This document shows positions 6,116 through 43,169 of a DNA stretch of 64,000 bases, one piece after another; the first letter of the stretch is position 1; every line of letters begins with the position of its first letter. The notes under the pieces were generated by a model, which did no database searches, was not told the DNA's origin, and was given only the letters and a program-made list of their open reading frames with translations. The DNA lies in contig NZ_AUFC01000002.1 in NCBI RefSeq assembly GCF_000426305.1, positions 186,001 to 250,000 on the forward strand, in the 5' to 3' direction. This DNA is from Anaerovorax odorimutans DSM 5092 (GTDB lineage: Bacteria; Bacillota; Clostridia; Peptostreptococcales; Anaerovoracaceae). Made by a program: the position numbers and the translations under genes.

Positions 6116-7357
6116 ATGAAATCAGCAATTTTAAGTGTTGGTACTGAAATCTTATTTGGTCAAATTATTAATACAAACTCCGTATATCTTTCAAAACATT
6201 TAAATATGCTGGGTATAGATGTGATGTATCATTATACTGTAGGCGATAATCCTAAAAGACTTGAAGAAATGATAAAACAAGCATTTACAGACTGTGATTT
6301 AATTATTACATCAGGAGGCCTTGGACCAACCCAGGATGATTTAACAAAAGAAATTGCAGCAAAAGCATTAAATGATGAATTAATATTAAATGAAACTGCT
6401 ATGCAATGGATTGAAAACTACTTTAAAAAGCTTAACAGAGAAATGACTGAAAATAATAAAAAACAAGCTTATATGCCATCAAGGGCAACGGTCTTTCAAA
6501 ATGATGCAGGAACTGCGCCTGGGTTTGCATTAGAAGAAAACGGTAAAATTATAATTTGTCTTCCTGGACCTCCAAGAGAAATGACAAGAATGTTTGATCT
6601 TAAAGTAAAGCCATATTTAGAAAAAAAATCACAAGGCACTATTTATTATAAAATGATTAGAACTTTTGGTATAGGTGAATCAGCATTAGAAACAGCATTG
6701 GAAGACTTAATTAATGATCAAACAGATCCAACATTGGCAACATATGCGAAAGAAGGTGAGGCATGCCTTAGAATAGCATCAAAGAAAAACACACTAAAAG
6801 AAGCGAAGCAGTCAGTAGAGAATATGTTAGAAACTGTAAAAGAAAGAATAGAGAAATATATATTCAGCTATGATGATGAAAATTTCCATGAAGTAGTTGC
6901 AAAGAAACTTTTAGATAACAATATTAGTATATCTTGTGCAGAATCTTGTACAGGTGGACTGTTTTCTCAGAGAATGACTGATATACCAGGTATTTCAGCA
7001 ATTTTTGACAGAGGTATTGTAACTTACAGTAATAAGGCAAAAATGGATGAATTAGGTGTGAAATCTGAAACTCTCCAAAAATATGGAGCGGTAAGTGAAG
7101 AAACAGCAATTGAAATGGCAGAAGGTTTAAAAAAAGTAAGCAGAAGCAGGCTTTGCATTTCTGTTACCGGCGTTGCCGGACCTGATGGCGGTACAGAAGA
7201 AAAACCAGTGGGACTTGTTTATATTTGCGCAATTCTAGATGAGAAAAGAATTTGTAAAGAATTTAGAATGAGAAATATAAACAGACAATGGAATAGGAAT
7301 TATTCGGTGTTGTGTATGTTAGATATGATCAATAAATTGATCGAAAGAAGTATATAA
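6116..7357 (+). CDS. cinA: CinA family protein: MoCF-like domain plus nicotinamide-nucleotide amidase
   Basis: Two-domain protein of 413 residues. The N-terminal MoCF/COG1058 domain (about 1-165, with SGGLGPTQDD and LPGPPREM) is associated with ADP-ribose pyrophosphatase activity in some homologues. The C-terminal PncC domain (about 255-405, with SCAESCTGG and SVTGVAGPDGG) deamidates nicotinamide mononucleotide for NAD salvage. GGAGG stands before the ATG. As in many Firmicutes it lies upstream of recA, but here a lipoprotein gene separates the two. Function in competence is historical and not implied by the sequence. Confidence 0.94.
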   Translation: MKSAILSVGTEILFGQIINTNSVYLSKHLNMLGIDVMYHYTVGDNPKRLEEMIKQAFTDCDLIITSGGLGPTQDDLTKEIAAKALNDELILNETAMQWIENYFKKLNREMTENNKKQAYMPSRATVFQNDAGTAPGFALEENGKIIICLPGPPREMTRMFDLKVKPYLEKKSQGTIYYKMIRTFGIGESALETALEDLINDQTDPTLATYAKEGEACLRIASKKNTLKEAKQSVENMLETVKERIEKYIFSYDDENFHEVVAKKLLDNNISISCAESCTGGLFSQRMTDIPGISAIFDRGIVTYSNKAKMDELGVKSETLQKYGAVSEETAIEMAEGLKKVSRSRLCISVTGVAGPDGGTEEKPVGLVYICAILDEKRICKEFRMRNINRQWNRNYSVLCMLDMINKLIERSI

Positions 7358-7394: not shown

Positions 7395-8906
7395 ATGAAG
7401 AAAAAATTAGCAATTGCTATAATTTTAGCGTTAATATTAGGATTATTTTCAGGATGTTCACAATCAGAAATTGGATATTTCAAATTGAATAATGATATAC
7501 AAGATAATAGTTATGAAGTTAAGGGTAATGTAGATCTTACTTACAATAAAAAAGCTGTTAATGATTATTTTACCAAATTTTTAAAAGATACATATGGTGA
7601 ATATTATGAAGAAGAAGATAATCCATTTAATGAGATTAACTTTGATGGAACTATAACTCTTAATTATAACGGTAAAATCAGTTATAACAAAATGTATGCA
7701 GATCTTAAATTAGAATTAAATATTGAGAATAGTACCATTGACTTAGGAAGAATTATTATAGATTCTGATGATGGTTTATATGTAACAAAGGATTCTATTA
7801 TTGGTCTTTTAAAAGTTGCTAAAATTTTAGATACAAATGAAGAAGGACAGATGTATACACAAAGAGTAGAAAATGAATTAAACGAATTATTAAAAGAAGA
7901 TAGTTATATTAATATTTATGAAGGTTATGAAGATTATGAATTAGTTCATTTTAATTCTTTATCAAACAAAAATTTACTGAAGGATAAAGAAATGGAATTT
8001 TTTAAATCCGCTTTCAAAAATTATTCTTCAGGTCTTATAACTGACTATTCTAAAGGGTATAAATTATCTGCAACATTGCAACAGATAGGAGATACTCTGG
8101 TTGAAACATTAGATTATATTTTAAATAACGAAGATGATTTTTTTGAATCACTTAAAATTTATAAAGATAATCTTAATACAGAAATAGATAATGAAAATAT
8201 AAATAATTATATAAAAGACATTCTATCAGAACTTGAAGAAAATAAAATAGAATTTAGAAATAACCTTATTATGTTTAAAGACGGTATTGAAATGGGTATG
8301 GAAAGCGACATGTTTTCTGATTTTAAAAATTCTTCATTCAACTCAGAGATTAATAGTACTAAAAACGGATTTGAAATTACTACAACTTTAAATATTGTAG
8401 CAGAGGGAAAAACATTATTTAATATTTCTGAAAATGCAACAATAATACCAAAAGAGATAAATAATGAAACACCTAAAACATCTTCAATATCTATAGAAGA
8501 AATAGAAAAAAAATTAAATGAAATTAATAACGAAATAAGGCCTGTAATAAGCGCTGAAATAACATTGGATTCTTATGACGATACTGCTTGGATAGATTAC
8601 TATAGATCTGGCAATGGAGCATTTTGGTGCAGTGATTTAGATGATTATGATTATTTAGATTATAAATATAAGAATGGTAGAATTCTCTTACCTGTAAGAA
8701 ATATTTGTGAAAGTTTTGGAGAAGAAGTAAAATGGGATAAGAAAAATAAAAAAGCATATATAAAGAAAGATGGGAAAGATATTTATTTAGATGGAATTTT
8801 TGATAATGATACTTATTTTATTAAAATTCGTGAATTAGAAAAACTTAACTATAAAGTTGAATATGAAAAAGAAGAAGATTTTGAAATCATTAATATTACA
8901 AAATAA
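7395..8906 (+). CDS. lipoprotein with C-terminal copper-amine-oxidase-N-like domain
   Basis: Secreted, lipid-anchored protein of 503 residues with no assigned enzyme activity. The signal peptide ends in the lipobox LFSGC (Cys21). Residues 30 to about 360 are an acidic, Asn-rich region without a motif I recognise. Roughly 390-503 resemble the Cu_amine_oxidN1 stalk domain frequent in clostridial surface proteins (ILLPVRNICESFGEEVKWD, followed by a hydrophobic beta-rich end). This domain does not imply amine oxidase activity. AAGGGGGAAG precedes the start, and a strong terminator follows. It interrupts the usual cinA-recA adjacency. Confidence 0.7.
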   Translation: MKKKLAIAIILALILGLFSGCSQSEIGYFKLNNDIQDNSYEVKGNVDLTYNKKAVNDYFTKFLKDTYGEYYEEEDNPFNEINFDGTITLNYNGKISYNKMYADLKLELNIENSTIDLGRIIIDSDDGLYVTKDSIIGLLKVAKILDTNEEGQMYTQRVENELNELLKEDSYINIYEGYEDYELVHFNSLSNKNLLKDKEMEFFKSAFKNYSSGLITDYSKGYKLSATLQQIGDTLVETLDYILNNEDDFFESLKIYKDNLNTEIDNENINNYIKDILSELEENKIEFRNNLIMFKDGIEMGMESDMFSDFKNSSFNSEINSTKNGFEITTTLNIVAEGKTLFNISENATIIPKEINNETPKTSSISIEEIEKKLNEINNEIRPVISAEITLDSYDDTAWIDYYRSGNGAFWCSDLDDYDYLDYKYKNGRILLPVRNICESFGEEVKWDKKNKKAYIKKDGKDIYLDGIFDNDTYFIKIRELEKLNYKVEYEKEEDFEIINITK

Positions 8907-22145: not shown

Positions 22146-22606
22146 TAAGAATTCAAAGAATAGAATTTATTTATCAAAAATTAAATATAAGAAGCATATT
22201 TATATATTTTTTTAGGCCAACCTATTAATTCTGGGAATATAAAAAAAGTTAAAAGTTAAATAAAGAACCTATATTTAGATTTATAAGTTATTCAATAAAT
22301 TTAATCATATATCTTTAAATTATAATTAATTCTTATTATATTTATGAATAAATATAACTTATAGTTAATAAGAAAACGCCTCCTAGATTCTTTTAAAATA
22401 TATCGTTGTCATTTTATGCTTATATATGGCAACTTGTGTAAATAGTATTGATTTATACAAAAAGCTTAGTATAATGAAAGAAGTAGTGGAAATAATACCC
22501 AAATATATAACTATATAATATGAAATAATTAGAAATAAAAATCAGTTAAAGAATAATACCTTTTTGGTTTACTTTAGCAAAATTAATAATTAAATAGGAG
22601 TATATT
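22146..22606 (+). other. intergenic region with a promoter module
   Basis: These 461 AT-rich bases hold no gene I can support. The only recognisable content is the promoter module at 22406-22475. A leader of about 125 bases separates it from the next start codon, without an obvious fold. Confidence 0.5.
22406..22475 (+). promoter_or_regulatory. promoter module, copy 1 (shared with 29572-29641)
   Basis: TTGTCA (22406), then ATATATGGCAACTTG (22422-22436), then -35 TTGATT (22448-22453), 16 bases, -10 TATAAT (22470-22475). All four blocks recur upstream of another gene at 29572-29641 with the same spacing to the base, which points to a common regulator. Confidence 0.7.
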
Positions 22607-23161
22607 ATGAGAACTGGAAATTTATTAGGAACTAATGTGATCAATACAGAACTTTGGGATAAGGCAAAATGGAAAAGTACAGTTTTTTTATCAGGTAAAG
22701 ATTCATCACCGTATTTAGGTATCACTTATCAAAACAAAGAAGCTGCTATCGAAATATTTTCAAACTGGATTAAAAAATTTGGACATCGTGATATTTTTGA
22801 AGAAATACGAATAGCAATAATCGAAGGGGATATCCCAAATCAAGAATATGGTTATTCTACTCATATAAGCACTAATTTTGACAGTTTTATAAACAATGAA
22901 TTAGACAATTATAATTTGTCTGGACGTATTAACAGAATGACTCCACCAAAATATTTAAAAAATTTACAATATTTTAAAGAAGAGTTTCATAAATTTGGAA
23001 GCTATATCATTATTCCTGTGCATATTAGTAATACTTCTCAAATAGATCCACTATTTGATTACGGAATAGAGAAAAAGGAACTGATTTTTAAACATGCAAA
23101 TGAATTATTATCAAATGATATAGATTATTGCTGTATAAAACAATTAAACAAAATCAAATGA
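22607..23161 (+). CDS. conserved-looking protein of unknown function
   Basis: A soluble protein of 184 residues, which I do not recognise. It has no signal peptide, membrane helix or cysteine pair motif; composition is mixed with many aromatic and charged residues (for example GHRDIFEEIRIAIIEGD and YGYSTHISTNFDSF). The start ATG follows TAGGAG. It is expressed from the promoter module at 22406-22475, which it shares with the small membrane protein at 29752. It stands alone; the flavodoxin gene follows about 110 bases later. Confidence 0.6.
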   Translation: MRTGNLLGTNVINTELWDKAKWKSTVFLSGKDSSPYLGITYQNKEAAIEIFSNWIKKFGHRDIFEEIRIAIIEGDIPNQEYGYSTHISTNFDSFINNELDNYNLSGRINRMTPPKYLKNLQYFKEEFHKFGSYIIIPVHISNTSQIDPLFDYGIEKKELIFKHANELLSNDIDYCCIKQLNKIK

Positions 23162-23268: not shown

Positions 23269-23757
23269 ATGAAAACATTAATAATTTATTATTCCTTAGA
23301 GGGAAATACAAAGTATATTGCAGAAAATATTGCAAAGGAATTACATGCGGAATTAATGGAATTAAAAACAAAAAAGATATACCCATCCAAAGGTTTTAAA
23401 AAATACATATGGGGAGGTAAAAGTGTTGTTCTTAAAGAAGAACCTGAATTATTAAATACTGATATTGATTTTTCTTCTTATAACAATATTATTATAGGAA
23501 CACCTATATGGGCAGGGACATATGCAGCACCATTTAATACTTTTGTGAATCAATATAATATTACTGGGAAAAATATTGCATTATTTGCTTGTCATGCAGG
23601 TGGTGGAGCCAAAAAATGTTTTAATATGTTTAGACAAAAACTCAAAAATAATTATTTTGTTAGCGAAATTGATTTTATTGATCCATTAAAAAAGAATACC
23701 GAAGAAAATTTAAAAAAAGCAATTAAATGGGCTGAGCTATTATCATTTCATAACTAA
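23269..23757 (+). CDS. flavodoxin-family protein
   Basis: FMN-binding electron carrier or small flavoprotein of 162 residues. The N-terminus KTLIIYYSLEGNTKYIAE has the phosphate-binding loop (residues 8-15). GTPIWAGTYAAPFNTF near 75-90 forms the 80s loop and ALFACHAGGGAKK near 104 the third strand. It resembles the Flavodoxin_4-like group more than classic ferredoxin-replacing flavodoxin. GGAGATGAG precedes the start. A terminator follows. Confidence 0.82.
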   Translation: MKTLIIYYSLEGNTKYIAENIAKELHAELMELKTKKIYPSKGFKKYIWGGKSVVLKEEPELLNTDIDFSSYNNIIIGTPIWAGTYAAPFNTFVNQYNITGKNIALFACHAGGGAKKCFNMFRQKLKNNYFVSEIDFIDPLKKNTEENLKKAIKWAELLSFHN

Positions 23758-29410: not shown

Positions 29411-29751
29411 CTTAAACCCCTTTAAGTGAATAATAAAATAATTAATTTGTACAATTATGGAAATATATAATAGTATATCATATTTTTCGTTATATTAAAA
29501 TCAATTTAGTTTTTGATATAGATAAAAATCTACAATATTCAAACTCTCTTATTACCTAAAAAGCTTATATTTTGTCAACTTGCGCGCATATATGGCAACT
29601 TGCACAGCTAATATTGATTTATTCAAAAGTTATTATATAATAAGCGTAGAAGTTTATTAAATTTAAGCATATAGTGCAATTGAGGTTAATAATGCGAAAG
29701 TTGTAGCTTATGATTTTATACTAGATTACTTATAAGCGAGGATTTAGATTT
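29411..29751. other. divergent intergenic region
   Basis: These 341 bases separate the leftward thioesterase from the rightward small membrane protein. They hold the second copy of the promoter module (29572-29641) and a leader of about 100 bases. No other gene-like structure is seen. Confidence 0.5.
29572..29641 (+). promoter_or_regulatory. promoter module, copy 2 (shared with 22406-22475)
   Basis: TTGTCA (29572), ATATATGGCAACTTG (29588-29602), -35 TTGATT (29614-29619), 16 bases, -10 TATAAT (29636-29641). Offsets of 16, 26 and 48 bases between blocks equal those in copy 1 exactly, while the spacers differ. Confidence 0.7.
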
Positions 29752-29928
29752 ATGGAAATAAAAGAATTTTTCAGTAAAGCTATTTTAAACTTAATAATAA
29801 GTTCTATAACATTCATTTTAGTATCTTATATAATTAAAGGTTTTGATTTTGAATGGTCCATATTAGTCTTTATTAATTTAGTTTCTTTTTTAACTTTAGT
29901 TATAATTTATAAATTACGTAGAACGTAG
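29752..29928 (+). CDS. small two-helix membrane protein
   Basis: A 58-residue open frame starting MEIKEFFSKAILNLI and ending YKLRRT. Two hydrophobic segments (about 10-28 and 34-53) are separated by a short charged loop KGFDFEW, with basic residues at the C-terminus, so both ends probably face the cytoplasm. GAGGA lies upstream of the ATG. It is driven by the second promoter module. Function unknown; a stress or envelope-associated small protein is a guess. Confidence 0.5.
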   Translation: MEIKEFFSKAILNLIISSITFILVSYIIKGFDFEWSILVFINLVSFLTLVIIYKLRRT

Positions 29929-42140: not shown

Positions 42141-43169
42141 ATGAAATTAAAAACCGTAACTATCAAATTATCCGCATTGGCAATGACAGGGATAATTGCA
42201 CTATCAGGAACAGGAACTGTTTTTGCAGCAGAAGGGGGCAGTGTTAACCAAAGAAATATGGAACAAAGACCTCAAATGGCAAACTTTGAGGAAATGTCTA
42301 GTATATACAAATCTGCCTTAGATTCACTTGTTGACAAAGGAAATATCACTCAAGACCAGGCTGATGTAGTTACATCAAATATGCCTGCTGGTAAAGCAGA
42401 AATATTTAGAGAAAGAAATAATAATTATAATAACTTGGTTTCAAAGGGAACTATTTCTCAAGATCAACTAAATATCATTAATGAAGCAATGAAATCTGCA
42501 AAAGATTCAGGTACTACAAAAAATGATATTATAAATCAACTGATAGATAAAGGTACTATAGACCAAAGTCAAGCCGATGCTATCATTGACAATATGCCTG
42601 CTAAAGCAAATTCAGGTGAAAGAAAAGGATTTTTAAGTGACCTTGTTTCTGACGGTACTATAACTCAAGATCAAGCTGATTCTATCCATGAAGCTATGAA
42701 GGATGCTAAAGATTCTGGTGAAACATTGAGTGATATTTTAAGTGATCTTGTAAGCGATGAAACTATTACTCAAAACCAAGCTGATTCTATCATCGATAGT
42801 ATGCCGTCAAATGATAACAACTCTTCATTCACAGGTGAAAGAAAAGGATTTTTAAGTGACCTTGTTTCTGACGGTACTATAACTCAAGATCAAGCTGATT
42901 CTATCCATGAAGCTATGAGAGATGCTAAAGATTCTGGTGAAACATTGAATGATATTTTAAGCGATCTTGTAAGCGATGAAACTATTACTCAAAACCAAGC
43001 TGATTCTATCATCGATAGTATGCCTGTTAGGGATAATAATTCAGATACTTCTAAAGGAAATGATCCCTATACTAAACTAGTTTCTGATGGCACCATTACT
43101 CAAGACCAAGCTGATGCTATAAGAAACGCCATAAAAGAAGCAATGGAATCTGAAATAGATTCTGAGTAA
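42141..43169 (+). CDS. secreted repeat protein, DUF2680-like
   Basis: Exported protein of 342 residues. The signal peptide covers about 1-30 (GTVFAAEGG at the cleavage area). The mature part is built of repeats of about 36 residues around the core VSDGTITQDQADSIHEAM, alternating with ETITQNQADSIIDSMP; seven or eight copies of the TQ(D/N)QAD-type core are visible. I recall this core from DUF2680 proteins. It is acidic, with no cysteine and no enzyme motif. AAAGGAGG precedes the ATG. The divergent two-component genes suggest envelope-stress control, comparable in logic to CpxP/Spy, without proven homology. Confidence 0.75.
   Translation: MKLKTVTIKLSALAMTGIIALSGTGTVFAAEGGSVNQRNMEQRPQMANFEEMSSIYKSALDSLVDKGNITQDQADVVTSNMPAGKAEIFRERNNNYNNLVSKGTISQDQLNIINEAMKSAKDSGTTKNDIINQLIDKGTIDQSQADAIIDNMPAKANSGERKGFLSDLVSDGTITQDQADSIHEAMKDAKDSGETLSDILSDLVSDETITQNQADSIIDSMPSNDNNSSFTGERKGFLSDLVSDGTITQDQADSIHEAMRDAKDSGETLNDILSDLVSDETITQNQADSIIDSMPVRDNNSDTSKGNDPYTKLVSDGTITQDQADAIRNAIKEAMESEIDSE
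42614..43024 (+). repeat. nearly identical 192-base direct repeat inside the repeat-protein gene
   Basis: 42614-42805 and 42833-43024 are almost identical, with only a few base changes (for example AAGGAT to AGAGAT and GAGTGAT to GAATGAT), and start 219 bases apart. They encode the same 64-residue block, so one copy is a recent in-frame duplication. Confidence 0.9.

Follow-up and report, generated by a model that had tools for sequence, protein, structure and literature searches.

A tandem direct-repeat operator before agr and flagellar genes of Anaerovorax odorimutans, a probable binding site of the response regulator AgrA

Two promoter blocks in the window and the genes behind them

The window analysed here, 64,000 nucleotides of contig NZ_AUFC01000002.1 of Anaerovorax odorimutans DSM 5092, contains two plus-strand genes, coding for proteins of 184 and 58 residues, each preceded by a block of 70 bases that had been proposed to be a repeated promoter module. 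We found that these blocks lie at 22406-22475 and 29572-29641, as the preliminary description had placed them, and that they match without gaps and in register at 51 of 70 positions. The features are listed below; the matrix and the profile R1 that give the scores are described further on.

22407..22440, plus strand: operator 1, half-sites 22407-22420 (degenerate) and 22427-22440; matrix 48.5 bits; R1 50.0 bits, E 7.2e-13
22448..22475, plus strand: promoter 1, -35 TTGATT 22448-22453, spacer 16, -10 TATAAT 22470-22475
22607..23161, plus strand: predicted target 1, the 184-residue protein, behind operator 1
29573..29606, plus strand: operator 2, half-sites 29573-29586 and 29593-29606; matrix 51.5 bits; R1 48.8 bits, E 1.7e-12
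29614..29641, plus strand: promoter 2, -35 TTGATT 29614-29619, spacer 16, -10 TATAAT 29636-29641
29752..29928, plus strand: predicted target 2, the 58-residue protein, membrane-like by eye, behind operator 2

The conserved core consists of two 14-bp direct repeats with the consensus TGKCAACTTGTGCA. Their starts are spaced by 20 bp, the -35 box comes 7 bp after the second repeat, and the operator itself occupies 34 positions. The operator sites have the layout of LytTR-type sites, that is, a pair of direct repeats spaced by about two turns of the helix and placed immediately upstream of -35. The binding unit, for which a protein just upstream of -35 had been proposed, can thus be refined to a tandem direct repeat. 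This changes the limits of the boxes described before, since TTGTCA extends over the beginning of the first repeat, and ATATATGGCAACTTG comprises the end of the spacer and part of the second. The offsets of 16, 26 and 48 that had been given for the blocks have mixed origins, the first being counted from TTGTCA and the other two from ATATATGG; the -35/-10 spacer is 16 at both window promoters. Between the two repeats, 11 of 14 positions are alike at 29573, but no more than 8 of 14 at 22407, since the first copy there, TGTCATTTTATGCT, is degenerate. Such a self-agreement at a 20-bp period is reached by 2098 of 63,967 places in the window, and the 22407 site is considered certain because of its match to the other copies, not because of its own symmetry.

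The 15-base identity shared by the two blocks, together with three further blocks at fixed distance, had been regarded as hard to explain by chance. Taken alone, the 15-base identity is less rare than was claimed, since 189 different 15-mers occur as direct repeats within the window; it is the register of the whole block that counts. When up to 3 mismatches were allowed, this 15-mer was found at 8 places, where 4.05 were expected; 6 of 100 shuffles gave at least as many. Other pairs scoring at least 47 of 70, among the 25 listed (the best for each distance), are coding-looking repeats or paralogues, as judged by eye from the letters. Coding-looking tandem repeats occur at 42411-43140 of the window, where one 70-base stretch recurs unchanged 219 bases away. 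By themselves, promoter-like pairs are not enriched, with 10 found near promoter 1 against 10.4 expected in shuffles, and 10 near promoter 2 against 10.6. We also scanned both strands of the window with a matrix trained on seven genomic sites outside it. This matrix gave 51.5 bits to the 29573 site and 48.5 bits to the 22407 site, and the third-best place of the window reached 0.95 (mean -52, standard deviation 12). The result is a strong consistency test and not a fully independent one, because the seven training sites were found through patterns derived from the 15-mer of the window itself.

The 184-residue protein was assigned to no family of Pfam, NCBIfam or PADLOC at the E-values asked, and PHROGs gave one match (E 0.045). 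It is 26-33% identical to plasmid-encoded proteins (in the eight listed of 13 matches), and in the four matches that were opened the aligned part is the C-terminus of a protein 1,080-1,110 residues long. The product of 22607-23161 is a stand-alone relative of that C-terminal part, the plasmids coming from very different bacteria. Among the 392 other genomes sampled from the order, 2 had a relative; none was found in viral contigs, and an unannotated phage record gave one weak match (29%, E 3e-4). The structure predicted from the single sequence has a mean pLDDT of 38.5 and is too poor to be of use. A flavodoxin gene (23269-23757) follows the 184-residue gene, and a gene that resembles it by eye is found close to agrA in one genome of the family (G128, locus L067, 7237-7716). 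The 58-residue protein was assigned to no Pfam family; in NCBIfam, Gip bacteriocin immunity was matched below threshold (18.5 bits, cut-off 45).

Sites across the genome

In the first genome search the 15-mer was used alone, leaving the distance between the repeats free, and in the later search patterns the 20-bp distance was preset. Nine sites are counted in the genome, all of them with direct repeats 20 bp apart and with 8 to 14 of 14 positions alike between the copies. They are given below by contig and position.

Site 1, C13:13642: agrB (PF04647) and agrD, with agrC and agrA convergent behind
Site 2, C2:208407 (window 22407), plus strand: 184-residue protein
Site 3, C2:215573 (window 29573), plus strand: 58-residue protein
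Site 4, C3:40932, minus strand: c-di-GMP-I riboswitch (RF01051, 80.8 bits), then flgC-like, fliE, fliF
Site 5, C3:79618, minus strand: stretch of about 85 nt in which no gene was recognised; gene of a 4Fe-4S protein further on
Site 6, C4:93985, minus strand: methyl-accepting chemotaxis protein
Site 7, C12:72849: kelch and Big_2 protein, signal-like N-terminus (by eye)
Site 8, C8:119541: copper amine oxidase N-terminal domain protein, signal-like N-terminus (by eye)
Site 9, C5:25136: small membrane-like open frames

The profile R1 was built from all nine genomic sites, so that both window sites belong to its training set. In the genome, the training sites score between 57.2 and 46.5 bits and the next place 19.6 bits; nothing else is better than E 0.09, and 16 matches have E values of up to 1. 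The place with 19.6 bits (C1:81138, 3 mismatches, E 0.0024) is a doubtful tenth copy and was left out of the nine. Another place, C3:223093 (2 mismatches, 14.5 bits), has no -35 box at the right place and was not counted. A relaxed pattern with up to 3 mismatches matched 11 places of this genome, and its backward version matched none. Further sites may be missing from the count, because the assembly consists of 54 contigs and is 98.5% complete.

At seven of the nine sites, a -35 and a -10 box that each match at least 4 of 6 positions, with a spacing of 16-18, stand at the distance fixed by the operator, compared with 1.8% of random window positions; the other two promoters lack such a pair at that distance. 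These results support the earlier proposal of a small regulon under one regulator bound just upstream of -35, and they enlarge it from two to about nine members. Many copies unrelated to promoters, which had been named as the sign of a dispersed repeat, were not encountered in the genome search.

Two of the sites stand before RNA or RNA-like elements. At site 4 (locus L033, 4239-4433, minus strand), the order is operator, c-di-GMP-I riboswitch and flgC-fliE-fliF, and no flgB-like frame was seen between the riboswitch and flgC. On the minus strand of the same locus, at 6535-6609, Rfam also reports a RAGATH-18 RNA (63.4 bits). The RNA-like unit of about 85 nt behind site 5 (locus L032, 3955-4044, minus strand) closes with a long, AT-rich hairpin plus a T run. 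Its folding has a z of -4.9, with 1 of 200 shuffles equally good, and the hairpin was not reported by the consensus terminator scan. This unit is possibly a short RNA.

The agr locus, its relatives and the candidate regulator

The operator of site 1 stands directly before agrB, whose product is the sole match to PF04647 in the genome (125.9 bits). The adjacent AgrD matches TIGR04223 with 23.1 bits (cut-off 19). Convergent to agrBD lie agrC, coding for a GHKL kinase (PF14501), and agrA, whose product combines PF00072 with the LytTR domain PF04397 and whose start is 1.3 kb beyond the end of agrD. The locus holds the tested elements of an agr locus, namely an AgrB protease, an adjoining AgrD, and a GHKL kinase with a LytTR regulator; against the staphylococcal equivalogs of NCBIfam the kinase and the regulator score far below the cut-offs (AgrC 44.1 bits vs 500, AgrA 33.4 vs 400). 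Nine LytTR domains are encoded in the genome, and among their loci the full site occurs only at that of agrA: with about 1.5 kb of flank searched at each of the other eight, none had the full operator, the best result being one partial match of 13.5 bits. AgrA matches solved AgrA LytTR structures, and its LytTR domain reads FLRCHKS, which fits FxRxHrS, the motif that the title of a reference describes as essential for DNA binding by VirR (PMC2688746). The regulator, for which the preliminary description had no name, now has a strong candidate in this AgrA, a LytTR protein whose gene lies near one of these operators.

We found AgrA homologues at E <=1e-20 in 23 of 349 genomes of the family, this one included. 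The closest outside this genome are those of G065 (54% identical), G128 (50%), G054 (45%) and G122 (43%). Related operators are present at the agr genes of G128 and G054, which rank third and fourth of the 349 by AgrA similarity, this genome being first. A narrow pattern with up to 3 mismatches had matched this genome only, among 148 family genomes. The relaxed pattern with up to 2 mismatches matched 6 of 349 genomes, with ten places in this genome, four in G054, three in G128 and one in each of three others; the matches in G128 and G054 are not independent of it, because the pattern was relaxed after their agr loci had been read. Its backward control gave no match in all 349. Three of the 349 genomes have at least two sites, and all three are among the five with the closest AgrA. 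The chance of this overlap is 1.4e-6, or 1e-4 without this genome, in a calculation that ignores both relatedness and the shaping of the pattern by the G128 and G054 loci.

All three sites of G128 are at its agr locus. Two of them precede agrB, and the third stands next to agrA, in front of a small gene that we take to be AbrB-like; with a profile from this genome alone the three obtained E values of 8.3e-7, 4.6e-5 and 3.5e-4. In G054, a perfect match to the relaxed pattern precedes agrD beside agrC and agrA, and another precedes agrB on a different contig, where the AgrB behind the operator is 56% identical to that of this genome. The G054 sites are arranged as two operators back to back, on opposite strands, before agrD (locus L068, about 7826-7900) and again before agrB (L082). 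With the profile from this genome alone they reach E 0.33 and 0.55, which is within noise and counts against assigning the sites to AgrA. Matrix rows for G128 (a/b) and G054 (a/c and b/d), in which ties pointed to one and the same place, were left out of account. G065, with the closest AgrA, has one site (3 mismatches, profile E 3.6e-5) before the gene of an exported-looking protein, away from the agrA locus, and no AgrB or AgrD was found beside that AgrA. No operator site was detected in G122, by pattern or by profile. The findings in G065 and G122 likewise speak against the assignment to AgrA. The best profile match in a genome that has no other support was in G196 (E 0.0105). Single matches in G184, G087 and G333 (2 mismatches) and in G162 (3 mismatches) were taken as chance, as was one betaproteobacterial record matching the operator pattern (27 bases, 20 specified) in the genome contig collection. 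The pattern was not found in viral contigs, and a protein search of the genome contig collection with AgrA returned no relative.

Direct repeats before agrB were also sought in the agr loci of six relatives. The G128 locus on contig C22 has the same kind of direct repeat before agrB. A second agr locus of G065 (contig 1, L071) carries another tandem repeat upstream of agrB at 2556, CACATTTCGTCCTT, present twice with a period of 21; there the layout is kept and the sequence is different. No clear repeat pair was seen before agrB in loci L070, L072, L073 and L074. The sites, their register, their genomic places and their association with agr genes, here and in relatives, are established by these data.

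The AgrD peptides were collected by the EPxxPxxL motif or by similarity to AgrD (L029 4328-4465, L067, L068 and L070-L074). In eight of them, one from this genome and seven from six relatives, the position that we take to be that of the ring Cys in S. aureus is Ser in six and Thr in two, the latter including this genome, as aligned by eye on the EP motif. A conserved Cys is present in the C-terminal EPxCPxEL part of the peptides of this lineage. A Ser-based lactone has been described in S. pseudintermedius (PMC3673130). Given this precedent and the Ser or Thr that replaces the ring Cys, the AgrD of the lineage is predicted to give a lactone peptide. A literature search for Ser/Thr lactone AgrD in clostridia returned nothing on the topic, as judged by title.

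Taken together, we consider it very probable that the repeated block is the binding site of the LytTR response regulator AgrA. Its copies are best read as marks of an agr quorum-sensing regulon in which feedback is positive. From the sequence we infer that AgrA binds, that it activates and does not repress, what the signal is, and that the genes are co-expressed. In the proposed mechanism, AgrB would process and export the AgrD peptide, which at high cell density would activate the kinase AgrC, and AgrC would phosphorylate AgrA. Two AgrA molecules would then occupy the pair of 14-bp repeats from the same side of the helix and bring in RNA polymerase. Activation by the phosphorylated form appears the best choice because of the geometry of VirR and AgrA sites and the fit of FLRCHKS. 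The predicted targets would be agrBD, as positive feedback, the flagellar operon, gated also by the c-di-GMP riboswitch, and the chemotaxis receptor, together with two exported-looking proteins, the possible short RNA, the locus of small membrane-like frames and the two window genes.

A different direct-repeat-binding regulator, of the LytTR type or of another family, could instead own the site and act on agrBD from outside, in the way of RgaR. The genome codes for eight more LytTR domains, and the RgaS-RgaR pair of C. difficile has been described as activating agrB1D1 without answering to AgrD1 (PMC10602386), for which reason feedback through the same peptide is not certain here either. However, the loci of those eight domains lack the full site, with the partial match of 13.5 bits as the best, and the sites of the relatives cluster at agr genes, G128 and G054 both carrying close homologues of this AgrA. 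We therefore regard an outside regulator as unlikely. A protein that blocks the polymerase next to -35 is a considerably weaker candidate. In its favour, no more than 7 bp separate the second repeat from -35, and three of the nine promoters combine a spacing of 16 with a perfect TATAAT. Against it, sites with this geometry that VirR and AgrA bind are reported to serve activation (PMC2838878, PMC4227749), and eight of the nine -35 boxes match at just 3-5 of 6 positions, which is what promoters that depend on an activator should show.

It is hardly credible that the blocks are left over from a dispersed repeat, or that they stem from the duplication of a promoter and have no regulatory meaning. 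Such an origin would fit the presence of two copies 7.2 kb apart in one window. Yet the nine copies are spread over seven contigs, all upstream of genes or of the RNA-like unit, the operator and -35 are conserved with 20 of 47 alignment columns invariant over the nine sites, and agr genes of other genera carry the operator in a relaxed form.

Assignment of the sites to AgrA allows a wider proposal, which we put forward tentatively and at slightly less than an even chance: a Ser/Thr-lactone agr peptide would drive positive feedback and directly switch the flagellar operon through AgrA, the c-di-GMP riboswitch of the leader would be a second gate, and a short RNA would extend the regulon. If this is true, cell density and c-di-GMP would meet at one promoter-leader in a little-studied lineage. 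Two anonymous promoters have led to a predicted quorum-sensing regulon of nine members with a readable operator.

Comparison with known systems

With respect to AgrCA of S. aureus, agrBD is here convergent with agrAC, and the flagellar operon is among the predicted targets. The AgrA box of S. aureus differs from the operator found here. The VirR box has the consensus CCAGTTNTNCAC, a sequence different from TGKCAACTTGTGCA; the operator was rejected as a VirR box proper, CAACTTGTGCAC agreeing by eye at 8 of 10 specified positions, with box positions 2 and 4 different. A literature search with the half-site letters gave only unrelated papers, as judged by title, and no published AgrA site before a flagellar riboswitch was found among the titles and beginnings of abstracts listed. 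In S. aureus, an AgrA dimer is reported to bind two direct repeats upstream of the agr promoters P2 and P3 (PMC4227749).

VirS/VirR of C. perfringens, as described, shares with the operator here the link to an agr-like peptide and the repeat geometry. A VirR box is made of two imperfect direct repeats of 12 bp, which lie within 34 positions and directly precede -35 (PMC2838878), and five genes of strain 13 are reported to have such boxes, three being small RNAs (PMC2838878, PMC2688746, PMC4877802). VirR is reported not to activate agrBD (PMC10602386), whereas here a full site stands at the agrBD promoter; the kinase and regulator genes, which adjoin agrBD here, are a further difference from VirS/VirR. 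The system presented here would be a testable case against the suggestion, made in the same report, that clostridial Agr systems in general are not autoregulatory (PMC10602386).

In C. difficile 027, which has agrACDB, an agrA mutant was reported to lack flagella, and the flagellar leader with the c-di-GMP riboswitch Cd1 was 5.3-fold underexpressed (PMC3754575). The terms 'binding site' and 'direct repeat' have no occurrence in the main text of that paper, whereas here the site stands directly before the riboswitch leader. Because of this position, the operator offers a direct, DNA-level explanation for the control of flagella by agr, as known from that mutant (PMC3754575).

The RgaR regulon of C. 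difficile, as reported, includes five promoters with VirR-like direct repeats, three of them bound and two assigned by sequence, and its targets include agrB1D1, a small RNA and hypothetical proteins (PMC10602386). RgaS-RgaR activates agrB1D1, RgaS does not sense AgrD1, and the two are encoded non-contiguously (PMC10602386). The critical G residues of RgaR sites, at -51 and -72, are 21 bp apart, compared with 20 bp between the repeats here. Flagellar genes are not named among the direct RgaR targets in the portions of that source used here (PMC10602386), whereas a flagellar operon is predicted in our case. As far as these published descriptions go, the regulon proposed for A. odorimutans would have a VirR/RgaR flavour with flagella added and an operator sequence of its own.
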